DNA from: an uncultured Cohaesibacter sp.
GTDB lineage: Bacteria; Pseudomonadota; Alphaproteobacteria; Rhizobiales; Cohaesibacteraceae
DNA length: 64,000 nucleotides
Assembly (NCBI RefSeq): GCF_963676275.1
Contig: NZ_OY781091.1
Coordinates: 4,855,001-4,919,000, forward strand
Direction: 5' to 3'
Positions 18,874 through 33,502 of the stretch are shown here, piece by piece (the stretch's first letter is position 1; every line of letters begins with the position of its first letter). The notes under the pieces were generated by a model. The model was not told the DNA's origin and ran no database searches. It was given only the letters and a program-made list of their open reading frames with translations. The translations under genes and the position numbers were made by a program.

Positions 18874-18889
18874 TGTTTCACGTGAATCG
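18874..18889 (-). promoter_or_regulatory. parS-type ParB binding site
   Basis: The 16-mer TGTTTCACGTGAATCG matches the bacterial parS palindrome TGTTTCACGTGAAACA at 14 of 16 positions. Its reverse complement reads GATTCACGTGAAAC in the core, the same variant as most other sites here. It is 1.6 kb from parB. Confidence 0.85.
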
Positions 18890-19023
18890 GTTCCGAATAT
18901 CACCGCGCCATTCATGCCATTCAAAATAGCTCTTTAAAATCAATTCCTAAGCCACAAAATCTAGCAAGCTTGGCAAAATTGTTTGCCGAAAAAGCACGCT
19001 CGCTTGTAAATTTTACTCATAAT

Positions 19024-19039
19024 CGTTTCACGTGAATCA
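19024..19039 (-). promoter_or_regulatory. parS-type ParB binding site
   Basis: CGTTTCACGTGAATCA matches the parS palindrome at 14 of 16 positions and again has the one-sided GATTC variant on the minus strand. It lies 150 bp from the previous site, in non-coding DNA. Confidence 0.85.
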
Positions 19040-19228
19040 ATCAATCTCTTCAAGACCTTGTCGCCCAGCGTCAATATTGTCAGACCCGACCTGCAATTAT
19101 ATTCTGCACAGACATTTTGCCTGCAAGATTGACATTAAATTTTGAAAATCAGAATCTGCCAGACATATCCCGCAGCACGTAGTTTTTCAGCACCAATTCG
19201 ACAAACGATCGCTTTTCCGGACAACAAT

Positions 19229-20464
19229 ATGGCAACCAGAGACAGTTTGAAAAAGGCAGGACCACATGCAGCCTATTTTGCCATGGTCACCGTATTTCTG
19301 GATGCATTCGGGATCGCCTTCATTTCTCCCGTGCTGCCTGATCTGCTCGAACAGATAACCGGCGCCAGCCTTGGCAATGCAGCGCTTTATGGCGGCTATC
19401 TCACCTTTATCTATGCCTTCATGCAATTCATGGTCTCACCGATTCTGGGGCATTTTTCAGATAGTTTCGGCCGCAGACCTGTCATTGTCATTTCTCTGGC
19501 CGCGCTCGGCATCGATTATCTGATCATGGGCTTTGCCAATTCGCTCTGGTTTTTGTTTGTTGGCCGTTTCATAGCCGGAATTTTTGGCGCAACCCACGCT
19601 GCCGCCCTCGCCTTCATCGCCGATATTTCAACGGGCAAACAGCGCACCCGAAATTTCGGTTTGCTTGGAGCAAGCTTTGGTGCTGGTTTTGTGGCCGGCC
19701 CGCTGATCGGTGGACTGCTGACAGACTATGGCGTCAGAGTTCCCTTCTTCGCTGCTTTCTTTCTGATTCTTCTCAATTTTTTCTATGGCCTGTTTCTTTT
19801 TCCCGAAAGCTTGCCAAAGCACAAAAGACGCCCTTTTACGCTGGAAGGCATCAACCCTTTCAAGGGCCTTGTCGAATGCGCCAATTTCCCCAGCATCAAG
19901 CCGCTTTTTCTGGCGCTCTTTCTTTTCCTCATTGCCGACCATGTCTATGTGTCCGTATGGCCCTATTATACCCGTGAAGCCTTTGCATGGGACAGCGGTC
20001 AGGTCGGCCTGACTCTCGCTATTTTCGGCTTTTTCCATGCCCTGACGCAGGCCTTTTTGGTGGGGCTTTTGCTAAAAAAGTATGATGAGGCGACCATTAC
20101 GATGATCGGGATTATCAGCACCAGTCTCATTATGGGCGGTTTGCTTTTCATCTATCAAGGCTGGATTATCTATATTTTTCTCCCTTTTACCGCATTGGGC
20201 GGCCTTACCATGCCGGGCCTGCAATCTCTCATGACCCAGCGTGTACCCCAGACCCATCAGGGGCAATTACAGGGAAGCATAAGCAGCCTTACCAGCCTGA
20301 CGACCATCCTCAGCCCGCTGATCATGACTTATACCTTTCGTTTTTTCACGCAGGATCACACCGCCTATTACCATCCTGCAGGTGTCTTTGGCCTCGCTGC
20401 CCTTATCTGCCTGCTGGCCGCCCTGCCCGTCAGGTATTTTCTCAAACAGATCAAACAGAAATAG
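19229..20464 (+). CDS. MFS transporter, TetA-like DHA1 family
   Basis: The ~411-residue protein has twelve predicted membrane segments and the MFS motif A in the 2-3 loop, GHFSDSFGRRPVIV near residues 75-88. It also has the motif-C-like GASFGAGFVAGPLIGG near 147-162. It resembles the TCR/TetA branch of drug:H+ antiporters, but the substrate cannot be told from the sequence. The start ATG 19229 (MATRDSLKKAG) is preferred; an in-frame upstream codon at 19142 is less likely because it adds a hydrophilic leader. It ends convergently with parB. Confidence 0.88.
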   Translation: MATRDSLKKAGPHAAYFAMVTVFLDAFGIAFISPVLPDLLEQITGASLGNAALYGGYLTFIYAFMQFMVSPILGHFSDSFGRRPVIVISLAALGIDYLIMGFANSLWFLFVGRFIAGIFGATHAAALAFIADISTGKQRTRNFGLLGASFGAGFVAGPLIGGLLTDYGVRVPFFAAFFLILLNFFYGLFLFPESLPKHKRRPFTLEGINPFKGLVECANFPSIKPLFLALFLFLIADHVYVSVWPYYTREAFAWDSGQVGLTLAIFGFFHALTQAFLVGLLLKKYDEATITMIGIISTSLIMGGLLFIYQGWIIYIFLPFTALGGLTMPGLQSLMTQRVPQTHQGQLQGSISSLTSLTTILSPLIMTYTFRFFTQDHTAYYHPAGVFGLAALICLLAALPVRYFLKQIKQK

Positions 20465-20480
20465 CGGCCATTTAGCCAAC

Positions 20481-20504
20481 AAAAAAGGGAGCCAACTGGC
20501 TCCC
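20481..20504 (-). terminator. Terminator after parB
   Basis: GGGAGCC and GGCTCCC form a perfect stem with a 4-base loop. On the minus strand it is followed by TTTTTTG, so it mainly serves parB. Confidence 0.85.
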
Positions 20505-20532
20505 CTGACATCGTGATCTGATGGAAAAGCGG

Positions 20533-21402
20533 TTACTGCTTTTCCAGAATGGCAATGATCGCATCAAGCTGCTCAAGCGATTTATACTGGATTTTCACTT
20601 CGCCGCCTTTCTTCTTTGGCGCGATGAAAACATTCCAGCCCAGCCGGTCCGTCAGGCGCTTTTCAAGCGCGACCGTGTCGGCATCCTTTTCCTTTTTCGG
20701 CTTTGGTTCCTTGACCTTGTCCTTCTCCTGACCGGCTTTCTCGGCATCGCGTACCGTCATGCCATCTTCAACAATCCGGCGAGCCAGTTCTTCAGGGTTT
20801 TCAGCCGTGATCAATGCACGGGCATGTCCGGCGGTCAATTCGCCCTTCTTGAGATAATCCTTGATGCTTTCAGGCAGCTTGAGCAACCGCAGGGTATTGG
20901 CGACATGCGATCGACTCTTGCCAATCACGTCAGCCAACTCAGCCTGCGTATAGTCAAACTCGGCAATCAGCTGATCATAACCCAGCGCTTCTTCCAGCGC
21001 GTTGAGGTCAGCGCGCTGAACATTCTCGATGATGGCAAGCTCGAGCGCTTCCTTGTCGTTGACATCATGAATGAGAACAGGCACTTCGTGCAGACCAGCG
21101 GCCTGGGCTGCGCGCCAGCGACGTTCACCGGCGATGATCTCGAAAGAATCATCCTCGCCCTTTACCGGACGGCAAAGAATAGGCTGCATGATGCCCTTTT
21201 CCTTGACCGAACGGGTCAAGTCATCAAGATCTTTTTCAATGAAATCCCGTCTCGGATTGCGCGGATTGGGCCTCAAAAACTCGATAGGAATACGCCTCTG
21301 GCTACGCGCGCGCTCTATCGCCTGAGCCTCGTTATCCATATCTCCGATCAGCGCGGCCAATCCACGCCCCAAACGTTTGCCTTCTGCTGGTTTTCTCGCC
21401 AT
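20533..21402 (-). CDS. parB: Chromosome partitioning protein ParB
   Basis: ParB binds parS, spreads as a CTP-dependent clamp and lets ParA move the origin. The protein (289 residues from the MARKPAEGKRLGRGLAALIG start) has the N-terminal CTPase motif GERRWRAAQAAGL near residues 101-113, the box II ENVQRADLNALEEA near 131-144, and an HTH (TQAELADVIGKSRSHVANTLRLL near 155-177). A Lys/Glu-rich linker leads to the C-terminal dimer domain. The longer frame from 21420 adds MTGMRN. It is 87 bp downstream of parA and 9 kb from oriC. Confidence 0.96.
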   Translation of the reverse strand: MARKPAEGKRLGRGLAALIGDMDNEAQAIERARSQRRIPIEFLRPNPRNPRRDFIEKDLDDLTRSVKEKGIMQPILCRPVKGEDDSFEIIAGERRWRAAQAAGLHEVPVLIHDVNDKEALELAIIENVQRADLNALEEALGYDQLIAEFDYTQAELADVIGKSRSHVANTLRLLKLPESIKDYLKKGELTAGHARALITAENPEELARRIVEDGMTVRDAEKAGQEKDKVKEPKPKKEKDADTVALEKRLTDRLGWNVFIAPKKKGGEVKIQYKSLEQLDAIIAILEKQ

Positions 21403-21489
21403 GTTCCGCATTCCCGTCAAACCCGCCTATGGACCTCTCCGAACGGATCTGACTTCCCTTAGCCACAGTTACTCTGCCGTGATAGACAA

Positions 21490-22320
21490 TCAGGCAGCCT
21501 TGTTACGCAGTTTTTTCTCGCGCTGGATAATCTCCGAAGCGAGTTTGAGATAAGCTTGGCTTCCCGAGCATTTCAGATCGTAAAGCAAAGCCGGCTTGCC
21601 ATAGGATGGCGCTTCCGACACCCGCACATTGCGCGGAATGATCGTTTCGTAAACCTTGTCGCCCATATGCTCGCGCACATCTTCAACAACCTGGTTGGAA
21701 AGATTGTTGCGGCTATCATACATGGTCATCACAATACCATGAATGGAAAGCTCGGGATTGAGCGCCCCCTTGACCTGATTGACAGTCTGAATCAGCTGCG
21801 TCAGACCTTCAAGCGCGAAAAACTCGCATTGCAACGGCACAAGAATGGAATGAGCCGCAGCCATCGCATTGATCGTCAGCAGGTTCAGAGACGGCGGGCA
21901 GTCGATCAGAATATAGGTAAAGCGCTTGTCTTCCGGAATCTGATCGCTCATTTTGCCATGATTTTCAATGGCTCTGCGCAACCGGAAAGCACGATCCTTA
22001 TCACCCGAGATTTCCTGTTCCAGACCAAGAAGATCCATTGTCGAGGCTGCAACAGAGAGCCGCGGCACCGCAGTCGGTATCGCAGCTTCCATCAGCGTCG
22101 CTTCGTTAAGAAGCAGCTCGGCTGTGGAAACACTGCGCGACTGGCGATCAATTCCCAATCCGGTGCTGGCGTTACCCTGAGGGTCTACGTCTACAATAAG
22201 AACAGATTCTCCAATCGCCGCCAGTGCGGTACCCAAATTGATTGCAGTCGTTGTTTTCCCAACGCCACCCTTCTGATTGGCAAGGGTCAGAACGCGGGGA
22301 GATTCAGGCAGTGAACTCAT
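21490..22320 (-). CDS. parA: Chromosome partitioning ATPase ParA
   Basis: The 276-residue ParA/MinD-type ATPase has the deviant Walker A KGGVGKTTTAINL near residues 18-30, the Walker A' VDVDPQGNASTGLG near 43-56, and the Walker B YILIDCPPSLNLLTINAM near 136-153. It drives segregation of ParB-parS complexes along the nucleoid. Upstream on the same strand is rsmG, 28 bp away, so mnmG-rsmG-parA-parB probably share transcription, a layout conserved across many bacteria near the origin. Confidence 0.97.
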   Translation of the reverse strand: MSSLPESPRVLTLANQKGGVGKTTTAINLGTALAAIGESVLIVDVDPQGNASTGLGIDRQSRSVSTAELLLNEATLMEAAIPTAVPRLSVAASTMDLLGLEQEISGDKDRAFRLRRAIENHGKMSDQIPEDKRFTYILIDCPPSLNLLTINAMAAAHSILVPLQCEFFALEGLTQLIQTVNQVKGALNPELSIHGIVMTMYDSRNNLSNQVVEDVREHMGDKVYETIIPRNVRVSEAPSYGKPALLYDLKCSGSQAYLKLASEIIQREKKLRNKAA

Positions 22321-22348
22321 AAAGTAGCCTCACTTCGCATTTGTTTCA

Positions 22349-23014
22349 CTATGCGTTTTTGGGTGATAAGCGGCGCAGAATAACAATCCTCGCATCCGGA
22401 TCAGTTCTGCTCTCCTGTTGTACCAGATCTATATTCCAGCTAACACTAGCCTCGCTCAATTCTCGATCAAAGTCCCGACCTTTGTGGAAAACACCCACAC
22501 AAGTTTCACAAATATGGGGATGAACAAAAGAACAGAGTTTATCGAGCGACGCCAGAGCCCTGGCGCTGAAGGCATCAACAGGTTCTGACCAGTTTTTCAA
22601 CACCGATTCGATGCGGTCGCCATGCAGGCATATATTCAAACCCAGCTCCCGCGCCACGGTTTTAAGAAAAGCCCCCTTGCGCCCGTTGCTTTCCACCAGA
22701 TGAACACAATAATCCTCGCCCAATTCATCCAGCAGGATGGCTGTCACCAAACCGGGAAATCCGGCACCGGATCCAAGATCAATCCAATGACGAGCAGAAG
22801 GATAAGCGGCAAAAATCTGAACGCTATCGGCGATATGTCGAAACCAGATTTCATCAAGGGTTTTTGGTGCCACCAGATTCTGCGCGGGCTGCCACTTGCG
22901 CACCAAAGCCTCATATCGCTCGAATTTATCGAGCGATTCACGTGAAACCGGAAGCATCGAATTGATCAAGGCAACAGCGCGTTCCTTGGCATCCATGATA
23001 TTCTTCACCTTCAT
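22349..23014 (-). CDS. rsmG: 16S rRNA (guanine-527 N7)-methyltransferase
   Basis: RsmG (GidB) adds the m7G527 mark in 16S rRNA; loss gives low-level streptomycin resistance in other species. The 221-residue protein has the SAM motif HWIDLGSGAGFPGLV near residues 80-94 and HLVESNGRKGAFL near 112-124. A shorter start at 22996 (MDAKERAV) is possible. A parS-type site (22934-22949) lies inside its first third and codes for residues in SRESLD. Confidence 0.94.
   Translation of the reverse strand: MKVKNIMDAKERAVALINSMLPVSRESLDKFERYEALVRKWQPAQNLVAPKTLDEIWFRHIADSVQIFAAYPSARHWIDLGSGAGFPGLVTAILLDELGEDYCVHLVESNGRKGAFLKTVARELGLNICLHGDRIESVLKNWSEPVDAFSARALASLDKLCSFVHPHICETCVGVFHKGRDFDRELSEASVSWNIDLVQQESRTDPDARIVILRRLSPKNA
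22934..22949 (+). promoter_or_regulatory. parS-type site inside rsmG
   Basis: CGATTCACGTGAAACC matches the parS palindrome at 13 of 16 positions. It is the only site of the set within a coding region, so its codons must serve both purposes. Confidence 0.7.
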
Positions 23015-23079
23015 TATGGCATCAGAACAGCGGCAAAACGGGGCTGGGCTGGGCCTACCCCGGCCACCATCTTGGCCAA

Positions 23080-24924
23080 TTACAATCTTTTGCTATGAGC
23101 CAGAACCAGCGTCAGTGCGGCTGGTGTCATACCGTCAATGCGAGACGCCTGCCCCAGTGTCTGTGGCCGCACATGATTGAGCTTCTGCTTCAACTCATTG
23201 GAAAGCCCATTGATATCTTCAAAAACAATATTGGATGGAATAGCCAGTGCCTCATCCTTTTTGAAGGTCTCGATGTCATCGGTCTGCTTCTGCATATAGA
23301 CCTGATAGAGCGCTTCCACTTCCAGCTGCTTGCGCACGCCTCTCGAAAAGGCTCCAAATTCCGGCCAGACCTGTGTCAGGCGATCCATATCCAGATCAGG
23401 ATAGGCCAACAATTCATAGGCCGTGCGACGCTGACCATCCTTGTTGATTTTCAAACCGTGACGCTCAGCCTCATTGGGCGTCAGGCTCTTTTCCTGCGCC
23501 AAAGCGGTGATTGCAGCTAGCTCCTGCTTTTTGGCACTAAAGGCCTTGCGCCGCTCATCACAGATCAGGCCCCAGCCGTCAGCACGCTCGGTCAGGCGCT
23601 GATCGGCGTTATCGGCGCGCAGCGACAGACGATATTCCGCGCGCGAAGTAAACATGCGATAGGGTTCCATCACGCCGCGAGTAATCAGATCATCGATCAT
23701 CACGCCGATATAGGCATCGGAACGTCCCAGAATAACACCATCCTGATCGCCACATTGACGAGCCGCATTTATCCCGGCGATCAGCCCTTGCGCTCCGGCT
23801 TCTTCATATCCGGTCGTTCCATTGATCTGTCCGGCCAGATAAAGCCCCGACACTTTCTTGGTCTCAAGGGTCGCTTTCAGCTCGGTTGGATCGATATAGT
23901 CATACTCGATCGCATAACCATATTGCTTGATCTCGACATTCTCCAGCCCAGGTATCGAGCGAATATAGGCATCCTGCACATCTTCAGGCAAAGAGGTCGA
24001 AATACCATTTGGATAGATGGTATCAACATCCAGTCCTTCCGGCTCAAGAAAGACCTGATGTCCGTCCCGATCACCAAAGCGATTGATTTTATCTTCAATG
24101 GACGGACAATAGCGCGGCCCCACTCCTTCGATCTTACCCGAATACATCGCTGATTTATGGATATTCTCGCGAATGATCTGATGGGTTTTAGCGACCGTCC
24201 GGGTCACATGACAGTCAATTTGCGGCGTTGTGATCTTGTCCGTAAGATAGGAAAAGGCAACGGGCTCCTCATCCCCCGGCTGCGTTCCGAGCGAAGAATA
24301 GTCAATTGTATTACCATTGAGCCGCGCCGGTGTACCCGTTTTCAAACGCCCCAAGCGGAAATTCTCGGCCATCAGTCGCAGAGACAATTCATTGGCCGCA
24401 GGATCACCCATGCGCCCTGCCGAAAAGCTCTTCTGGCCGATATGAATAAGCCCCCTCAGGAATGTGCCGGTCGTAAGAACAACAGCGCCACAGGCAATCT
24501 CCTTACCATCAGCCAGAGTAACCCCGGTCACCCGCCCGTCGGCAATCGTCATATCGGCCACTTCGCCGTCAACAACTTTCAAATTCGGGATCTCGAACAG
24601 CAGCGCCTGCACTGCTTGCCGATATAATTTTCTGTCTTCCTGGGCCCGAGGCCCCTGCACTGCCGGCCCTTTACGACGATTGAGCAAGCGAAACTGAATT
24701 CCGCCGCGATCAGCCGCAAGCCCCATGACGCCGCCCAGAGCATCAATCTCGCGAACCAGATGTCCCTTACCCAATCCACCGATAGCCGGATTACAAGACA
24801 TCACACCAATCGTGTCGCGACTATGTGTAACCAAGGCAACCTTGGCACCAACCCGCGCAGCAGCAGCAGCAGCCTCGGCACCTGCATGCCCACCACCGAC
24901 AACAACGACATCAACCTGGTTCAT
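23080..24924 (-). CDS. mnmG: tRNA uridine-5-carboxymethylaminomethyl modification enzyme MnmG
   Basis: MnmG (GidA) is the FAD-dependent partner of MnmE in making cmnm5U/nm5U at the wobble position. The 614 residues contain the FAD-binding [21 protein letters not shown] near 8-28, [20 protein letters not shown] near 45-64, and [21 protein letters not shown] near 363-383. The length is near normal. MnmE is encoded just upstream on the same strand, with a parS array in the 293 bp between them. Confidence 0.97.
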
Positions 24925-25067
24925 TCAATCTCTCTCACACATTCAGCCAACATCAGGCAGGCTCTACATCAGAGCAACGATCTATAGCACATCATTCCAG
25001 CTATAGATTCCATTTCTTCAGAACTTGTTTACATCTCGCGTGATAGCGTTTTGGCTACAGAGTTTCC

Positions 25068-25212
25068 GGATTCACGTGAAACAGCCAGAAACCGCCATTT
25101 TGCTCCAATATCCGCCGATTCACGTGAAACATTCACGCTAATCTCGAGATTTGATGATTCACGTGAAACAGAGTCAATCCCGAAATTCAAAAACTATGTT
25201 TCACGTGAAACG
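25068..25212. promoter_or_regulatory. parS: Cluster of four parS sites between mnmG and mnmE
   Basis: Four CACGTG palindromes lie within 145 bp: 25068-25083 (14 of 16 matches to TGTTTCACGTGAAACA), 25116-25131 (14), 25155-25170 (15) and 25197-25212 (15). Centre-to-centre spacings are 48, 39 and 42 bp. The first three read GATTCACGTGAAAC and the last is TGTTTCACGTGAAACG. The density, together with parAB 3 kb away and oriC 5 kb away, makes this the likely main ParB loading zone. Confidence 0.93.
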
Positions 25213-25217
25213 ATCCA

Positions 25218-26561
25218 CTATTTACCCACACAGAATTGTGAAAAAATCACGCCGAGCATTTCCTCGACGTCGATCCTTCCCGTAATTTTCCCCAGTTCAT
25301 CCCCAGCCTGACGCAGAAATTCAGAACGGATTTCGATAGGGGAATCTGTATAGATAAGAGATTTATTAACATTATCCACACAAGAAGCCAGATAATTTCT
25401 ATGGCGTTCGCGCGTAATCAGCACATCTTCTGCACCATCAAACAGGGATTCTATTTGTTTCACAAACGAATCGTAAAAGATATCCATGCCGGAACCTGTC
25501 TTTACTGACGCGGAAAAGGCAGATTCCTTATCACTCTCTTTACTATTTGCATGAAACGGTACCGATTCGATTCGATCCAGCTTATTGAACAGAACAATCC
25601 TTCGCGCCGAACTGTTAAGCGCCACCCGCTCCTCCGGCCGCGTTCCATCCACGACCTCGATCAGAAGGTCGGCATTCTCGCTTTTTTCCAGAGCCCGGCG
25701 AATACCTTCCCGCTCGACAATATTGTCCGATTTGCGCAAACCGGCCGTATCAATCATGGTCACCGGATAGCCCTCGATATCCAGATGCAGCTCCAGCAGG
25801 TCGCGGGTTGTCCCCGCCTCCTCTGTTACGATGGCCACGTCGCGCTTGGCAAACCAGTTGAGCAATGACGATTTTCCGGCATTGGGATGTCCGGCCAGAA
25901 CCACGGTCAATCCATTGCGCAGGCGCTCGCCATGATCGGCCTTGGAAAGATGCCGCTCGATATCGACCTTCAATGCGCGCAATTTCGGCCAGATCACGTC
26001 AGACACAGCGCCCGGAATATCCTCTTCGTCGGAAAAATCAAGCTCCGCCTCTATCATGCTGCGCGCATTAAGAAGTGTCTCCCGCCAGCCATCAATAACG
26101 CTCTTGTGCGCTCCGCTTGCCTGCCGGATAGCCTGCTTGCGCTGATTTTCCGTTTCTGCCTGAATAAGATCAGCCAGCCCTTCCACCGCCGTCAGATCAT
26201 ATTTGCCATTTTCAAAGGCCCGACGGGTAAATTCCCCGGCCTCGGCCATTCGACAACCGGGAAAGCGCCCTAACAGAGCCAGCATCGCCTTGACCACTGC
26301 CCGCCCGCCATGCAGATGAAACTCGACAGCTTCTTCGCCAGTGAAGGATTTTGTCTCCGGAAAGAAGATGACCAGCGCCTGATCGAGAACATCGCCACTA
26401 TCAGGATCCGTCACATAGCGTAAGGCGGCAAAGCGCGGCTTTGGTTCCTTGTCGATCAGACTATTCATCACCAGACGGGCCTTGGGGCCAGACAGACGGA
26501 TCACGGCAACACCAGCCGGAACAGCTCCGCTGGAGAGGGCGAAAATTGTATCTCTCATCAT
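25218..26561 (-). CDS. mnmE: tRNA modification GTPase MnmE
   Basis: MnmE (TrmE) is a K+-activated GTPase that works with MnmG. The 447-residue protein has the tetrahydrofolate-binding N domain (IFALSSGAVPAGVAVIRLSGP near residues 6-26), a helical domain, and an inserted G domain with P-loop VVLAGHPNAGKSSLLNW near 224-240, switch II DTAGLRKSDN near 272-281 and a NKLD-type motif VLFNKLD near 324-330. It ends in the signature FCVGK with the catalytic Cys. Start at the first or second Met is not resolved. Confidence 0.96.
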   Translation of the reverse strand: MMRDTIFALSSGAVPAGVAVIRLSGPKARLVMNSLIDKEPKPRFAALRYVTDPDSGDVLDQALVIFFPETKSFTGEEAVEFHLHGGRAVVKAMLALLGRFPGCRMAEAGEFTRRAFENGKYDLTAVEGLADLIQAETENQRKQAIRQASGAHKSVIDGWRETLLNARSMIEAELDFSDEEDIPGAVSDVIWPKLRALKVDIERHLSKADHGERLRNGLTVVLAGHPNAGKSSLLNWFAKRDVAIVTEEAGTTRDLLELHLDIEGYPVTMIDTAGLRKSDNIVEREGIRRALEKSENADLLIEVVDGTRPEERVALNSSARRIVLFNKLDRIESVPFHANSKESDKESAFSASVKTGSGMDIFYDSFVKQIESLFDGAEDVLITRERHRNYLASCVDNVNKSLIYTDSPIEIRSEFLRQAGDELGKITGRIDVEEMLGVIFSQFCVGK

Positions 26562-26815
26562 GAGTCCAATCCTTATGCGCCCAACGATCAGGGCCGCATG
26601 CGCAACATCTGCGATTTTGATTGTTTCAGTGCCGAATCCATCTGCACGAACCGGGATAGACAGGAACCGGATCCATATATGCCAGATTCTTGCGTGAAAA
26701 GCCCGGGATTCAGGCAGACTTCAGGCCGACAATCCGGCCTTTCCGGTGTTTCCCGGCAAAGCCGATATTCGATAGAGCAGATTTGATTGAACAGATCAGG
26801 AAGATCACAAATAAC
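26562..26815. other. Gap between rho and mnmE
   Basis: No gene is supported in this stretch; short frames on both strands look random. It should hold the mnmE promoter at its left end, before the rho terminator. Confidence 0.4.
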
Positions 26816-26846
26816 AAAAGCCGCCCAACGACTGTTAGACGGCTTT
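26816..26846 (-). terminator. Terminator after rho
   Basis: On the minus strand AAAGCCG and CGGCTTT pair around a partly paired 16-base loop, followed by TGTT. It lies about 55 bp past the rho stop. Confidence 0.65.
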
Positions 26847-26899
26847 CTAATCTTTTGTTTGCAATTGGGCAAGCCCAATCTGCAAGGCAATGCAACCGA

Positions 26900-28165
26900 T
26901 CAGGTATTCATATTATCGAAGAATTCGGCATTGCTCTTGGTTGCCCGCAATTTGTCGAGCAGGAATTCGATGGCATCGACATTGCTCATCGCGCCAAGAA
27001 TACGGCGCAGAACAAAGACCTTCTGCAGATCCTTGCGATCGACCATCAGCTCTTCCTTGCGGGTACCGGACTTCAGGATATCCATAGCCGGGAAGATACG
27101 CTTGTCGGAAACCTTGCGATCAAGCACGATTTCGGCGTTACCCGTACCCTTGAATTCCTCGAAGATAACCTCGTCCATGCGGCTGCCGGTATCGATCAGG
27201 GCGGTTGCGATGATTGTCAGCGATCCACCTTCCTCGATATTACGGGCTGCACCAAAGAAGCGCTTGGGACGCTGCAACGCATTGGCATCCACACCACCGG
27301 TCAAAACCTTGCCCGAAGACGGAATAACAGTGTTGTAGGCGCGACCAAGGCGGGTGATGGAATCCAGCAGAATAACAACATCGCGGCCATGCTCGACCAG
27401 ACGTTTGGCTTTTTCGATCACCATTTCGGCCACCTGCACATGCCGTGCAGCCGGTTCGTCAAAGGTGGAAGACACCACTTCGCCATTCACCGTCCGTTTC
27501 ATGTCCGTTACTTCTTCAGGACGTTCATCAATCAGCAGAACGATAAGGCAGCTGTCAGGATGATTGGCGGTGATGGATTTGGCGATATTCTGCAACAGAA
27601 CGGTCTTACCGGTACGCGGCGGCGCAACGATCAGCGCGCGCTGACCTTTACCGAGCGGCGCAACCAGATCAATCACGCGGCTGGACATGTCCTTGCCGGT
27701 CGGATCGGTAGATTCCAGTTTGAAGCGTTCGTCCGGATGCAAAGGCGTCAGGTTGTCGAAATGCACCTTGTGACGAGCCTTGTCCGGATCTTCGAAATTG
27801 ACAGTATTCACCTTCAGAAGGGCAAAATAGCGTTCGCCTTCCTTCGGGCTGCGAATATGCCCCTCCACCGTATCACCAGTGCGCAGCGAAAAACGCCGGA
27901 TCTGGGAAGGCGAAATATAGATGTCATCCGGCCCCGGCAGATAGTTGGCGTCCGGTGAACGCAGAAAGCCGAAACCGTCCTGTAATACCTCGACGACACC
28001 TTCGCCGATGATATCGGTTTCCTGTTCTGCAAGCTGTTTGAGGATCGCAAAAAGCAGCTCCTGCTTTCGCAGCGTGCTGGCATTTTCGACCTCGAGCTCT
28101 TCAGCAAAATTCAAAAGCTCTGTTGGAGATTTTTGTTTGAGTTCTTTTAGTTTCATTTCGCGCAT
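26900..28165 (-). CDS. rho: Transcription termination factor Rho
   Basis: Rho is the hexameric RNA helicase that ends transcription at rut sites. From ATG 28165 ([18 protein letters not shown]) the protein is 421 residues, the usual size in this class. It has the N-terminal helical domain, the cold-shock RNA-binding fold ([16 protein letters not shown] near residues 62-77), Walker [16 protein letters not shown] near 177-191, [14 protein letters not shown] near 211-224 and the Q/R-loop region toward the end. The frame extends 44 codons further upstream but without family similarity. The 266 bp leader upstream may carry autoregulation. Confidence 0.96.
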
Positions 28166-28431
28166 AGCGAAACTCTCATATAAGGGATAAGCAACCAAGG
28201 GAAAAAGGTAGGAAGAAACAAGGCACTCTTTTCTGTTATTGCGCCTCGCTACAGCCTTGGAAACAAAGGAAAGATGACGTTTCCAAGAAAATCGCATTCA
28301 GAAACGATTTCGCGGACCATAACTGCTTCGCATTATCTGGGCAAGCCCCATCATACAAAAATATCTTGTCAATGGCAGCAAAAGCGTCAAATTGAGACGA
28401 ATTACTAGTCTCAACTTTGAATAAGCTTTCA

Positions 28432-28881
28432 TCAAAAGGGCTTAACGACAGCCAAAATAACGATCGCCAGCATCAGCAGGGTTGGTACTTCGTTGAAATA
28501 GCGGAAATAGATGTGGCTCCGTTGATTGGCGTCAGCTGCGAACAGACGCACATGACGCGCACAAATCATATGGTATCCGGTCATCGCACTTACAAGAACA
28601 AACTTGATATGAAGCCAGATTGCATCGGCGCTCCATATGCCATGGCCAAAGGCAAGCCACAATCCGAATATCCAGCTCGCGATAAGCGCCGGATTCATGA
28701 TTCCCTTGAGCAACTTGCGTTCCATCACCTTGAAGGTCTCTGATTTCTCAGACCCCACCTCGCTCATCGCATGATAGACAAAAAGCCGGGGCAGATAAAA
28801 AATCCCAGCCATCCATGTGATCACACAAATGATGTGCAGCGCCTTGGTCCACTCATAGGGCAGAAAGGTAAGAAAATCCAT
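28432..28881 (-). CDS. hemJ: Protoporphyrinogen IX oxidase HemJ
   Basis: HemJ (UPF0093) is the membrane enzyme that oxidises protoporphyrinogen IX in most alphaproteobacteria. The 149 residues form four helices. Features are the conserved His in WTKALHIICVITWMAGIFYLPRLFVYH near residues 11-37, WIFGLWLAFGHGIW near 69-82 and WLHIKFVLVSAMTGYHM near 89-105. It lies 63 bp downstream of hemE on the same strand, so two steps of haem synthesis are co-expressed beside oriC. Confidence 0.93.
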   Translation of the reverse strand: MDFLTFLPYEWTKALHIICVITWMAGIFYLPRLFVYHAMSEVGSEKSETFKVMERKLLKGIMNPALIASWIFGLWLAFGHGIWSADAIWLHIKFVLVSAMTGYHMICARHVRLFAADANQRSHIYFRYFNEVPTLLMLAIVILAVVKPF

Positions 28882-28944
28882 TTTGGTCCTCGATAAACTT
28901 GCTTGAAAGCCGCACCACTGGTCTGGTTATCGGCTCCTCAGCCC

Positions 28945-29976
28945 CTACCCCTGATAGGAACACACGCGATTGATCAGGCGATGAACCAGATCAATATCTC
29001 CCTGCGGCGAAATACCGTGACCAAGATTGAAGATGAACGGCCCCTCGCTCCAGGCAGCCATGATGCGATCAATCGCTTCATCCAGATGACGCTCGTCAGC
29101 CATCAGCAAGGTCGGATCCAGATTGCCCTGCAAGGCGGTTTTGGTCTGAAGATTGTCCCGCGCCCAGTCCAGCGGCACCGTCCAGTCGAGCCCGATTGCA
29201 TTTACACCGGTTGCCTCGACAAAATCGATGAGCCGCACGCCCGCCCCCTTCGGAAAACCGATAATTTTCGCATCGGGAATTTGCGAGCGCACGCCAGAGA
29301 CGATTCGGGCAATTGGGTCACGGGAAGCGGAAATATAGAGCGCGTCATCAAGAACGCCGGCCCAACTGTCAAAAATCTGGACCGCATCGGCCCCCGATTG
29401 CAACTGTTTGACCAGATAACGGATGGATGCCTCGACCAGTATATCAATAAGCGCATGAAAAGCTTCAGGATGTTTGCGAGCGAAAAGACGGGCCGGAGCC
29501 TGATCCGGAGTGCCCTGCCCGGCAATCATATAGGTCGCCACAGTCCATGGTGCGCCGCAGAAGCCCAGAAAAGTGGTCTCCTCCGGTAGCCCATCACGAA
29601 TCTTGCCAACTGCCTCGAAAACCGGAGAGAGTTTCTCGATCACAGATGAGGGATCGAGATCTTTAATCTCGTCCGGAGTGATGGGATCCAGCTGTGGCCC
29701 CTCGCCCTGAACAAATCTGACCGAACGCCCCAGAGCATCTGGAATGACCAGAATATCGGAAAACAGGATCGCTGCATCGAAACCAAATCGACGGATGGGT
29801 TGAAGGGTTACCTCGGTTGCCAGATCGGGATTGTAGCAAAGGGAGAGAAAACTGCCTGCTTCGGCTCTGGTAGCACGATATTCGGGAAGATATCTTCCCG
29901 CCTGCCTCATCAACCAGATTGGAGGAACCTTCTCGGTTTGCCCATTGAGCACATTCATCAAGCGTCGATTGATCAC
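28945..29976 (-). CDS. hemE: Uroporphyrinogen decarboxylase
   Basis: HemE removes four carboxyl groups from uroporphyrinogen III to give coproporphyrinogen III. The 343 residues contain the signature [17 protein letters not shown] near residues 18-34, the catalytic-loop Asp in [14 protein letters not shown] near 70-83, and [19 protein letters not shown] near 138-156. The length is typical. It is the first gene left of the origin and points away from it, as in Caulobacter and rhizobia, where hemE marks the left border of oriC. Confidence 0.97.
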
Positions 29977-30015
29977 GATTTCTATCTCCCCGTTTGTGCC
30001 TCGAATTGAGCACGA

Positions 30016-30120
30016 TTCCCCACAAGCTTCCTAATAAAATATTTATGTTTTAAGAGTCTGTTTCTTCTTTTAGACCGTGGATTGTGGGGGTTCTTTTTGG
30101 CCCACAATTTGCCCACAATG
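30016..30120. promoter_or_regulatory. Cluster of degenerate DnaA-box-like sites
   Basis: Four copies of CCCACAA lie here: within TTCCCCACA at 30016-30024, on the minus strand at 30082-30090 (ATTGTGGGGG), at 30101-30107 and at 30112-30118. Each 9-mer differs from TTATCCACA at two or more bases. Further two-mismatch 9-mers are TTACGCACA (30411-30419), CTATGCACA on the minus strand near 30513, and AGATCCACA (30538-30546). Confidence 0.5.
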
Positions 30121-30280
30121 ACTCGTGAACAACTGTGATTCAACAGTGCTTACTTCCTAGTAACAATTCTGGAATTACGGGGACAAGTCTCAGGGCTGGC
30201 AGAAATCTGCGTGCTGCTTTGTGGTCAAATCTGGGTATGATCGGAAGACAGATATTGAGTAAATTTGAACAACTTGTGTA

Positions 30281-30295
30281 TTAACTGTTTGTTAA
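30281..30295. promoter_or_regulatory. CtrA binding box 1 in oriC
   Basis: TTAA-CTGTTTG-TTAA is a perfect match to the CtrA consensus. CtrA binding at oriC blocks initiation in swarmer-type cells of Caulobacter. Confidence 0.75.
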
Positions 30296-30348
30296 CCTAA
30301 GTAAACAGAGTGTTAACAACTCTCGCGCTGCGCAAACCAGCTTGGGGA

Positions 30349-30363
30349 TTAATAAATGGTTAA
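30349..30363. promoter_or_regulatory. CtrA binding box 2 in oriC
   Basis: TTAA-TAAATGG-TTAA is a second perfect match, 68 bp from the first. Confidence 0.75.
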
Positions 30364-30453
30364 CGAGCATGAAATCGTCAACACGGGAAAACCAGCCGAT
30401 TTATCCCCTCTTACGCACAGCCCCTGGGGAAGAATCACTCAATGCTGCTTTCA

Positions 30454-30468
30454 TTAATGGCTTATTAA
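30454..30468. promoter_or_regulatory. CtrA binding box 3 in oriC
   Basis: TTAA-TGGCTTA-TTAA is a third perfect match, 105 bp from the second. Three exact boxes within 190 bp are far above chance for a GC-rich genome. Confidence 0.75.
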
Positions 30469-30615
30469 GACAATTTCATGACGAAAAGCGCGGATTTCTG
30501 TCATTTGTCGGTCTGTGCATAGACAAGATAGAGGGAAAGATCCACAAGGCCCGTTTTGTTTGGCTCTCTGTTGCTCTAAGTAAATTCGAAATTCTTAAAC
30601 GGTTGGATTGCTCAC

Positions 30616-31212
30616 ATGATTCCTATGATTCTTGCTTCCAAAAGCCAGGCCCGGGCCGCTCTTCTGTCCAATGCCGGTCTCTCATTCCACACCGATACGG
30701 CACAGATTGACGAGCGCGCAGCCGAACAACCGCTTGTTCAGGCCGGTGCGTCTCCGGCCGATATCGCCAGCCTGCTCGCTCAGGTGAAGGCCAGTGATGT
30801 GTCTGATCGCAATCCCGGTGCGCTGGTCATTGGTGCCGACCAGACCCTTGGCTTTGGCGAAAGACGCTTCAACAAGCCCCAAAATGATGAAGCCGCGCGC
30901 CGCCAATTGCTCGATCTGGCAGGCCATAGCCATCAGCTTCATTCGGCAGTTGCCTGCGTCAAGGATGGAGAAATCCTCTGGAGCCATGTTTCCACCGCCA
31001 CCCTGACAATGCGGCCTCTGAGCGCAGCGGAGATCGGCCGCTATATGGCCCGTGTTGGCGATCAGGTGCGCACCAGCGTTGGTTGCTATCAGCTGGAGGG
31101 ATTGGGAGTGCAGCTATTTGAAAAGATAGATGGCGACTATTTCACCATTCTGGGGCTGCCTTTATTGCCATTGCTTGGCTATTTGCGTCAGGAACAGGGA
31201 CTGGAGTTCTGA
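30616..31212 (+). CDS. maf: Maf-family nucleotide pyrophosphatase
   Basis: Maf/YceF proteins hydrolyse non-canonical or modified nucleoside triphosphates. The 198 residues show the signature ILASKSQARAALLSNAGL near 5-22 (SxSxxR pattern), LVIGADQTLGFGERRFNKP near 72-90, and the late segment VGCYQLEGLGVQLFEKIDGDYFTILGLPLLPL near 155-187 (broken here by wording, read as VGCYQLEGLG then GDYFTILGLP). The start may be the first or fourth codon. It is the first gene right of oriC and leads the maf-aroE-coaE-dnaQ operon. Confidence 0.92.
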   Translation: MIPMILASKSQARAALLSNAGLSFHTDTAQIDERAAEQPLVQAGASPADIASLLAQVKASDVSDRNPGALVIGADQTLGFGERRFNKPQNDEAARRQLLDLAGHSHQLHSAVACVKDGEILWSHVSTATLTMRPLSAAEIGRYMARVGDQVRTSVGCYQLEGLGVQLFEKIDGDYFTILGLPLLPLLGYLRQEQGLEF

Positions 31213-31214
31213 TC

Positions 31215-32075
31215 ATGTCAGAAAGATCATCTTTCCTTTCAAAGGCTTTCGTTATCGGCTGGCCAATCGGGCAATCCAAGTCACCGATCATCCACAGCCA
31301 TTGGCTGAGGCATCACGGCCTTGAAGGGTCTTACGAGAAAATTGCCGTTGCGCCAGAAAAGCTCGGCGCTTTCATCGCCCAGATGAAGCAAGAGGGATAT
31401 GCCGGTGGCAATGTCACCATCCCCCATAAACAGGCCGTTCTGGAGCATGTCGATATCATCCATCCGGCGGCTGAGAGGCTGCAGGCGGCAAATACCCTTT
31501 GGTTTGAAGATGGCAAATTGCATGCCGACAACACCGACGGTTACGGCTTTCTGGCCAATCTGGACCAGTGTCAGCCGGGATGGGATGCCAAAAGCGGTGC
31601 AAATGCGATGATTCTGGGCGCCGGTGGCGCGGCAAGGCCTGTCATCAATGGCCTGATCGAGCGCGGCTTTGACAAAGTCACCATCGCCAACCGAACCAAA
31701 GAGAAGGCCGAAGCCCTCGCGCGCCTCTTTGATGGGCTGGGGCTGGGCAGGCATGTTGCCGTTATCGACTGGCAGCAGCGATCCGGCGAACTCGCAGATA
31801 TCGATTGTCTGGTCAATTGCTCAAGCCTTGGCATGATCGGTCAACCGCCTCTTGAAATAGCGCTGGATGCATTGCCGCCAGCCGCACTGGTCACCGATAT
31901 CGTCTATAATCCGCTGGAAACGGACATTCTGCGACTGGCACGGCAAAAGGCTAATCCGACAGTTGACGGTTTGGGCATGCTGCTTCATCAGGCGGTACCC
32001 GGTTTCGAACACTGGTTCGGTAAGCGGCCCGAAGTTACCGAGGCGCTGCGCAACGAGGTTCTGCAGCATTTATAG
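31215..32075 (+). CDS. aroE: Shikimate 5-dehydrogenase
   Basis: AroE reduces 3-dehydroshikimate to shikimate with NADPH in aromatic amino acid synthesis. The 286 residues have the substrate site GWPIGQSKSPIIHSHW near 15-30, GGNVTIPHKQAV near 63-74 with the catalytic Lys, TDGYGFL near 104-110, and the nucleotide loop ILGAGGAARPVINGL near 132-146. Spacing of 2 bp after maf and 8 bp before coaE shows tight operon structure. Confidence 0.95.
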   Translation: MSERSSFLSKAFVIGWPIGQSKSPIIHSHWLRHHGLEGSYEKIAVAPEKLGAFIAQMKQEGYAGGNVTIPHKQAVLEHVDIIHPAAERLQAANTLWFEDGKLHADNTDGYGFLANLDQCQPGWDAKSGANAMILGAGGAARPVINGLIERGFDKVTIANRTKEKAEALARLFDGLGLGRHVAVIDWQQRSGELADIDCLVNCSSLGMIGQPPLEIALDALPPAALVTDIVYNPLETDILRLARQKANPTVDGLGMLLHQAVPGFEHWFGKRPEVTEALRNEVLQHL

Positions 32076-32083
32076 GGGGAAGC

Positions 32084-32686
32084 ATGATCAGGATCGGATT
32101 GACCGGCTCAATCGGAATGGGCAAGACAACGACAGGCAAGATGTTTGTTGATCGCGGCTGCCCTCTGCATGATGCTGATGCCGTCGTGCATGACCTCTAT
32201 AGAGACAAGGCCGTTCCTCTGATCGAGGCCGAATTTCCTGGCACGACCGGCCCCTTGGGAGTGGATCGTGCCATGCTTTCCGACAGGGTGATTGGCGATC
32301 CCGACGCCCTCAAACGCCTTGAAGCCATCATTCACCCGCTGGTGCGGCAACAGGAGAAGGCTTTTTTCGACAAGGCCCGTGCAGATGGCGCAGAATGCGC
32401 CATTGTGGATATTCCCCTGCTGTTTGAAACCAATGCACAGCAGCGTGTGGATATCGTGGTGGTGGTTTCTGCCGCCGAAGATATCCAGCGCCAGCGCGTA
32501 TTGCAGCGCCCCGGCATGACGGAGGAAAAATTCCTCGCCATCAAGGCCAAGCAGATGCCGGATGCGGAGAAGCGCAGCCGCGCAGACTATGTCATTGATA
32601 CGGGCAAGGGTCTTGAAGCGGCCGAGCAGCAGGTCGAAGCCGTTCTGGCCGACATCAAAAGGCGCTTTGCACAACCCGCCGAATAG
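32084..32686 (+). CDS. coaE: Dephospho-CoA kinase
   Basis: CoaE does the last step of coenzyme A synthesis. The 200-residue P-loop kinase has IGLTGSIGMGKTTTGKMF near residues 3-20, the substrate Asp pair in PLHDADAVVHDLY near 27-39, and DIPLLFET near 108-115. It lies between aroE and dnaQ. Together with coaA in the histidine cluster, the window encodes both the first and the last CoA-pathway kinases. Confidence 0.95.
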   Translation: MIRIGLTGSIGMGKTTTGKMFVDRGCPLHDADAVVHDLYRDKAVPLIEAEFPGTTGPLGVDRAMLSDRVIGDPDALKRLEAIIHPLVRQQEKAFFDKARADGAECAIVDIPLLFETNAQQRVDIVVVVSAAEDIQRQRVLQRPGMTEEKFLAIKAKQMPDAEKRSRADYVIDTGKGLEAAEQQVEAVLADIKRRFAQPAE

Positions 32687-32729
32687 ACCATAGTCAGCAA
32701 GGTGATTTGCTTAGCGAGAAGAGATTGAA

Positions 32730-33470
32730 ATGGCGTTGCGCGAAATAGTATTCGATACCGAAACGACAGGGCTGGATGTCATGACCGGCGACAGGATCGT
32801 TGAAATCGGCTGTGTTGAGCTGATCAACCATCTGCCGACGGAGAATAATTTTCACGTCTATATCAATCCCGAGCGGGACATGCCCGAAGAGGCTTTCCGT
32901 GTCCATGGTCTTTCCGAGGAATTTCTCTCCGACAAGCCAAAATTTGCCGAAATCGCCAAGGATTTTCACGACTTTATCAAAGATACGGTGCTGATCGCCC
33001 ATAATGCCAGCTTCGACGTGAAATTTCTCAACTGGGAGCTGGACAAGGCCGGCTTCCCGAAAATCGACAATGATCTGGTCATCGATACGCTGGCCATGGC
33101 GCGCCAGCGCTTTCCCGCCGGTCCGAACAATCTGGACGTTCTATGCTCTCGTTTCGGCATCGACAATTCAAAGCGTACCCTGCATGGCGCGCTGCTTGAT
33201 AGTGAGATTCTGGCCGATGTCTATCTGGAACTGATCGGTGGACGCCAGACCAGCTTCATGCTTTCCAGTGATCAGCAGAGTGACAGTGGCGGCATGGAAG
33301 GCAGCACGGGCGAGCGCAAACCGGCCAGACAGCGCCCGGTTGCCCTGTCTTCCCGCTTGACCGAGGCAGAAATAGAAGCCCATCGCACCTTTCTGGGCGA
33401 GATCAAGGGCGAGAGCATCTGGTCAGGCTATATGCCTCAGCCCGCCGAGCCCCAGCCGAGCGAGAATTGA
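32730..33470 (+). CDS. dnaQ: DNA polymerase III epsilon subunit (3'-5' proofreading exonuclease)
   Basis: DnaQ gives the replicative polymerase its proofreading. The 246 residues have the DEDDh exonuclease motifs: ExoI VFDTETTGLD near 6-15, ExoII VLIAHNASFDVKFLNWEL near 88-105, and ExoIII with HGALLDSEILADVYLEL near 152-168. A C-terminal tail should bind the alpha subunit. It ends the maf-aroE-coaE-dnaQ run and is followed by a parS-type site and a strong bidirectional terminator. Confidence 0.96.
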   Translation: MALREIVFDTETTGLDVMTGDRIVEIGCVELINHLPTENNFHVYINPERDMPEEAFRVHGLSEEFLSDKPKFAEIAKDFHDFIKDTVLIAHNASFDVKFLNWELDKAGFPKIDNDLVIDTLAMARQRFPAGPNNLDVLCSRFGIDNSKRTLHGALLDSEILADVYLELIGGRQTSFMLSSDQQSDSGGMEGSTGERKPARQRPVALSSRLTEAEIEAHRTFLGEIKGESIWSGYMPQPAEPQPSEN

Positions 33471-33486
33471 AGCCATTGATCAAAAT

Positions 33487-33502
33487 GGATTCACGTGAAA
33501 CG
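33487..33502 (+). promoter_or_regulatory. parS-type site after dnaQ
   Basis: GGATTCACGTGAAACG matches parS at 13 of 16 positions and has the GATTC variant. It is the only site found to the right of oriC in this window, 3 kb from it, in the dnaQ-secB gap. Confidence 0.75.

Follow-up and report, generated by a model that had tools for sequence, protein, structure and literature searches.

parS sites in the parAB region of Cohaesibacter

The window analysed here is a stretch of 64,000 nucleotides from an uncultured Cohaesibacter sp. (contig NZ_OY781091.1, positions 4,855,001 to 4,919,000), which contains the partitioning genes parB and parA together with eight parS sites, the loading sites of ParB. 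Cores of the form TCACGTGA occur eight times in these 64 kilobases (kb), compared with 0.67 expected, and none of 100 dinucleotide shuffles reached eight. All eight belong to 16-mers that differ from the canonical chromosomal parS, TGTTTCACGTGAAACA, by one to three mismatches and retain the CACGTG core. As the original prediction had described, GATTCACGTG is found on exactly one half of seven of these sites, giving GATTC and hence a target (GANTC) of the methylase CcrM, and the site at 25197–25212 is symmetric. The sites, the two partitioning genes and one adjoining GANTC are:

18874–18889, parS 1, TGTTTCACGTGAATCG; GAATC at 18884–18888, right half
19024–19039, parS 2, CGTTTCACGTGAATCA; GANTC (GAATC) at 19034–19038, right half
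20533–21402, minus strand, parB; ParB_N, HTH_ParB and ParB_C domains; start codon uncertain
21490–22320, minus strand, parA; ParA/MinD-type ATPase, named from its gene order with parB
22934–22949, parS 3, CGATTCACGTGAAACC; within an rsmG-like frame; GANTC at 22935–22939, left half
25068–25083, parS 4, GGATTCACGTGAAACA; between mnmG-like and mnmE-like frames; GANTC at 25069–25073, left half
25116–25131, parS 5, CGATTCACGTGAAACA; GANTC at 25117–25121, left half
25155–25170, parS 6, TGATTCACGTGAAACA; GANTC at 25156–25160, left half
25171–25175, second GANTC (GAGTC), adjoining parS 6
25197–25212, parS 7, TGTTTCACGTGAAACG; no GANTC, the sole symmetric site
33487–33502, parS 8, GGATTCACGTGAAACG; between dnaQ-like and secB-like frames; GANTC at 33488–33492, left half

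The whole genome (a single contig of 5,033,865 bases) was searched for GTTTCACGTGAAAC with up to two mismatches, which gave 12 places. Eight of these are the parS sites of the window, with no or one mismatch, and the other four have two mismatches and lack the CACGTG core. Since the reversed control pattern gave eight places at equal tolerance, the four additional places are regarded as background. The genome-wide scan proposed with the original prediction thus returned eight sites, all inside the window and within 15 kb, and no other parS lacking GATTC, so that seven of eight holds genome-wide. Among the 12 single changes possible at half-site positions 2–5, the exchange of T3 for A is the only one that creates a GANTC motif.

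The sites surround parB and parA and lie in or between rsmG-, mnmG- and mnmE-like frames, with one at the dnaQ/secB-like frames (apart from parA and parB, genes are named from our reading of the translations). Clustering near parAB and absence from the rest of the genome are traits of chromosomal parS. All three ParB domains scored above the Pfam cut-offs, 6t1f is the closest solved chain by E-value, and the protein is 96–97% identical to ParB of C. marisflavi and C. haloalkalitolerans. For ParA, every NCBIfam match was under its curated cut-off.

The ccrM gene called for by the original prediction was found, outside the window, as a CcrM-type methylase gene with N6_N4_Mtase and RAMA domains, both over the Pfam cut-offs. 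Its best NCBIfam model was the Caulobacter-named CcrM equivalog NF050803, with a score (637.7 bits) under the curated cut-off of 830. A gcrA gene is present as well. The GcrA motif is YGAKTCG; it is unmatched at all seven parS with GANTC, as an A follows GATTC. Among 160 genomes of the order Rhizobiales, 155 encode a ccrM-like protein. At L014 (1171–3794) we noticed a second N6_N4-type methylase with no RAMA match directly before a frame that we read as sliding-clamp-like, perhaps belonging to a prophage or mobile element.

Conservation of the one-sided sites within the genus

Seven of eight sites in a single genome would be compatible with shared ancestry or with a preference of ParB, and relatives were therefore compared. 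GWTTCACGTGAAWC is present in 20 of 20 genomes of the family searched, and among the matches listed one-sided sites occur in all 11 relatives. A two-sided form, GATTCACGTGAATC, appeared once among the matches listed, on another contig of G005. For the genus, the window and 11 relatives (12 genomes) were compared, and sites were grouped by their distance from parB, not by alignment.

Five site positions were followed in this way, with 11, 8, 12, 12 and 12 copies in the 12 genomes. All 55 copies retain the A at half-site position 3; L030 has two copies in one group, and a single one of them entered the count. The distant flanks of these positions have identities of 0.24–0.36, apart from one right flank with 0.53. 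At parS 2, assigned by its position downstream of parB, GAATC is present in 11 of 11 copies with flank identities of 0.24–0.27, and all 8 copies of parS 8 retain the A, with flank identities of 0.25–0.32. The A of parS 4, 5 and 6 is kept in all 12 genomes each. Position 1, just outside GANTC, is variable at several of the five positions followed. The last site of the mnmG cluster, parS 7, is symmetric in 12 of 12 genomes, and four of the 12 have a symmetric parS 3 in rsmG, the one clear switch. That the sites lack a function and reflect shared ancestry or mutational drift is very improbable: the Cohaesibacter sites are inherited, so that seven of eight does not stand for seven events, but the A is invariant between near-random flanks, and, as described below, the presence of GANTC sites changes repeatedly over the ParB tree of the order and extends to 16 of 30 families.

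Outside the five groups are a site at −2090 (three genomes) and one extra site each in L029 (11659), L034 (12261) and L035 (10543). The latter three have an intact GATTC half and G2 exchanged for A (ATTT) on the other half, the reverse of the usual split between a good and a changed half. The GAGTC beside parS 6 has an identical location in L030, L032 and L038, is displaced slightly, by a few bases, in L036 and L037, and is missing from L028 and L031.

Repeated occurrence of GANTC half-sites in the order

For the order, parB neighbourhoods of 20 kb each, a size that misses distant sites, were surveyed in 80 genomes of 30 families: 11 Cohaesibacter and 69 others, hand-picked mostly down the ranked list of ParB matches (154 genomes with a match among the 160). 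Of 306 sites found, 20 without a canonical half or without G2 on both halves were dropped, including four ATTT/GATT, four ATTT/GTTT, one GATT/GTTC, one GATT/GTTG and one GAAT/GGTT. The remaining 286 sites, in each of which one half or both are canonical (GTTT), comprise 137 symmetric sites, 137 with GANTC on one side and 12 with other changes (without Cohaesibacter: 211 sites, with 122, 77 and 12, respectively). The changed halves are 130 GATT, 7 GACT, 7 GTTC, 3 GCTT, 1 GTCT and 1 GGTT, and thus 137 of 149 create GANTC. No site among the 286 carries GANTC on both halves, compared with about 17 expected if the halves were independent.

GANTC sites were found in 44 of the 80 loci and in 16 of the 30 families, and 42 of the 44 GANTC loci also have a symmetric site. 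On a quick ParB tree, in which 24 of 77 inner branches have weak support, presence of GANTC changes state at least 14 times and presence of GACTC at least four times. In the comparison with related genera that the original prediction called for, the GANTC half was maintained as lineages diverged and is present in 16 of 30 sampled families of the order; it is rare in other alphaproteobacteria (see below).

GANTC, not the A alone, appears to be maintained

If the A at position 3 were all that counted, position 4 should stay T and position 5 should be free to vary, as it is in halves with T3. Two patterns were searched in 317 genomes of the order. GAVTCACGTGAAAC, with A3 and a changed N that keeps GANTC, gave 32 matches in 24 genomes, compared with two for the reversed control; 30 are GACTC, from six families, one is GAATC and one GAGTC. 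GATVCACGTGAAAC, with A3 and a changed T5 that breaks GANTC, gave six matches in five genomes, compared with five for the control. For 17 of the 24 GAVTCACGTGAAAC genomes a parB position was listed: in 15 of them, the 20 GACTC matches share a contig with parB and are no more than about 50 kb away from it, and the remaining two have the GAATC and the GAGTC match, on contigs other than that of parB. G407 accounts for two of the six GATVC matches, at distances of about 54 and 100 kb from parB; a third, in G614, is on a different contig from parB, and three are in genomes with no parB position listed.

Halves with T3 show the opposite tendency, with position 5 changed in seven and position 4 in one. 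Fisher's test for position 4 versus position 5 gave 0.0014 by site and 0.015 with families as units; with the six GACTC families it gave 0.0047, a value that mixes two data sets. Relatedness is accounted for in a rough way in these tests. Since N varies while changes that break GANTC stay at control level, GANTC itself seems to be selected, one half at a time. That N is nearly always a pyrimidine suggests that position 4 is still read by ParB.

A change in ParB specificity as the cause of the GANTC sites was considered and rejected. The best of 1617 residue tests, made on 70 loci with ten of the 11 Cohaesibacter left out, reached p = 1e-4, uncorrected for the number of tests or for relatedness, and the 15 residues most strongly associated with GANTC sites all lie outside 163–173, taken as the recognition helix.

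Orientation of the sites and possible position of the origin

According to the original prediction, the changed halves make the sites directional, and in the window those at 18874 and 19024 do point one way and those at 22934, 25068, 25116, 25155 and 33487 the other. This orientation is common to Cohaesibacter, where the GANTC half is on the same side relative to parB in 13 of 13 downstream sites and in 47 of 47 sites on the parA side. It does not hold as a general rule: among 80 sites in the other 69 order loci (three with a non-canonical partner half), 39 on the parA side have the GANTC half on the left and 36 on the right, and 5 of 5 downstream have it on the left. Direction relative to parB was consequently rejected as a rule for the order.

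A possible oriC region lies in the gap between hemE-like and maf-like frames:

29977–30615, hemE-like/maf-like gap; five GANTC in 639 base pairs (bp)

The Caulobacter origin adjoins hemE. In the window, GC skew switches sign near 30–31 kb and cumulative skew drops again later, and the gap contains no DnaA box within one mismatch; it is a weak candidate for the origin. If the origin were in this gap, both parS orientations would be on one side of it, and an origin between 19 and 23 kb would make orientation match the replichore in Cohaesibacter.

Possible function of the one-sided sites

Judged from sequence, the one-sided sites are most likely auxiliary parS that can be modified by CcrM and accompany a parS that cannot. 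We assign a probability of about 0.46 to the reading that they are chromosomal parS in which one half has become a CcrM target, whose methylation modulates ParB loading according to the replication state. At least one symmetric parS, which CcrM could not modify, would be kept as a constant core, and several auxiliary parS with GANTC on one half would accompany it. Passage of the fork shortly after initiation would leave the auxiliary GANTC motifs hemimethylated until CcrM appears late in the cycle. Methyl groups in a half-site read by ParB may alter nucleation of ParB on that half, and the effective number of loading sites on the sister origins would then depend on the replication state. The comparisons establish the pattern itself, that it is conserved and arose repeatedly, that the variation is specific to GANTC and that a ccrM-type gene is present; methylation of the sites, its timing, its influence on ParB and any benefit are inferred. 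N6-methyladenine lies in the major groove of DNA. The recognition helix of Caulobacter ParB inserts into the major groove of parS (PMC7383237). In Hyphomonas neptunium, ParB no longer bound once T3 and T4 of one half were exchanged for C (PMC6650430), which points to a sensitive half-site in that species. A methylation signal that was lower near ori1 than near ter2L in Agrobacterium tumefaciens was interpreted by the authors as hemimethylation (PMC11514494).

Several observations weigh against this reading. Most members of the class are said to conserve CcrM (PMC3973325), yet 40 parB neighbourhoods of other alphaproteobacteria contain 86 sites, of which 82 are symmetric, three are GATTC (in two loci) and one is GGTTC. 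Membership in a class that bears CcrM hence does not by itself produce one-sided GATTC sites. Of 385 class genomes, 15 contain GATTCACGTGRRAC, our own among them, compared with four matches for the control. The order provides no usable contrast without ccrM, as four of the five genomes lacking a match are less than 90% complete. Taken alone, the contrast at position 5 (0 of 137 A3 halves versus 7 of 431 T3 halves) is not significant (p = 0.20), and N, almost always T or C, is not free. Outside the class, one-sided sites are sparse, and they are not exclusive to the order. In a sample of the phylum, the 14-mer forms numbered 37 GATTC, one GCTTC and two GGTTC in 31 order genomes, two GCTTC in 40 other alphaproteobacteria, and seven GATTC (GATTCACGTGAAAC) and four GCTTC (GCTTCACGTGAAAC) in 128 genomes of other classes, where the control gave one. 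As the GATTC forms there exceed the control, ParB elsewhere tolerates A3 on one half. Among five of these outside-class GATTC sites inspected, that of L173 (772–785) is directly behind a parA-like frame; those of L171 and L172 look orthologous by eye and lie upstream of similar frames. In a small control of 20 non-alphaproteobacterial neighbourhoods, eight had a site, and all 13 sites were symmetric.

These outside-class sites fit the chief rival, in which a preference of ParB for A3 tunes its affinity and methylation has no role: A3 would be a favoured route in this order to weaker or asymmetric auxiliary parS, with GANTC as a by-product, and GANTC would never occur on both halves because one good half is required. 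We regard this as possible, if somewhat doubtful. The one-sidedness agrees with a ParB dimer that needs one good half, and retention of a symmetric site in nearly all GANTC loci agrees with it too. However, in the entries considered from PMC7022226, known parS differ in the outer bases and at position 5 but agree at position 3, and the loss of binding in H. neptunium concerned a change at T3 and T4 on one half. Recurrence of GACTC with GATVC at control level, the reverse of what T3 halves show at positions 4 and 5, argues against a preference for A3 as such, as does the absence of a recognition-residue change in ParB accompanying the GANTC sites. Furthermore, position 3 seldom carries C or G in the order (4 of 286 sites), in contrast to 4 of 11 outside the class.

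The coupling could also run in reverse, with ParB shielding GANTC from CcrM; the local hypo- or hemimethylation left behind would be read by a further protein or would restrict CcrM close to the origin. We consider this reverse coupling unlikely. ParB departs from parS as a sliding clamp, so that shielding may be brief, and the sites differ from the GcrA motif. In its favour, GANTC shows an enrichment of about twofold in the intergenic DNA up to 50 bp from parS, with GANTC motifs of neighbouring parS excluded and coding DNA split off, and MucR occludes GANTC in Caulobacter (PMC5172544). We give the flank enrichment little weight, since it also surrounds the symmetric parS of other alphaproteobacteria (uncorrected, 2.2 fold, compared with 3.4–5.7 fold for the order) and falls under 1 in the coding DNA of Cohaesibacter (three sites). 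In the set L108–L147, the density of GANTC up to 50 bp from parS was about 2.5 times that of other intergenic DNA, alphaproteobacteria with GANTC-free parS included.

Relation to known systems and implications

In Gammaproteobacteria, Dam and SeqA handle GATC after initiation. That system, also named in PMC11514494, resembles the modulation of ParB loading proposed here in its idea, a hemimethylation signal near the origin after fork passage; enzyme and motif are different, and the reader proposed for Cohaesibacter is ParB itself. With the canonical ParABS system the Cohaesibacter sites share the 16-bp near-palindrome, the CACGTG core, clustering around parAB and a ParB of the standard family, and they differ in carrying GANTC on one half, where the available text of PMC7022226 places the variability at position 5 and the outer bases. 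CcrM-dependent control, including that of repABC replicons, likewise uses GANTC as a cell-cycle mark near the origin, with clusters near the repABC parS; in the portions of PMC9040568 and PMC11514494 available, however, the motifs are beside parS, in promoters or in the origin, whereas those of Cohaesibacter are inside the ParB half-site. No mention of the one-sided 14-mer in either orientation was found in the literature searched, which excludes most subscription journals.

An open question in bacteria is how the onset of segregation is coupled to origin replication. We put forward tentatively, from the sequence comparisons, that methylation-switchable centromeres may be widespread: ParB loading sites would have been rebuilt repeatedly, in 16 of 30 sampled families, with one half modifiable by CcrM, and their strength would follow the replication state beside a symmetric core that is always on. 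If this is true, a methylation mark inside the ParB half-site in many members of the order would make a direct coupling possible, which could be tested with short oligonucleotides. Copying of the chromosome could then change the loading of its segregation protein by way of one-sided methylation targets, to the benefit of the cell.

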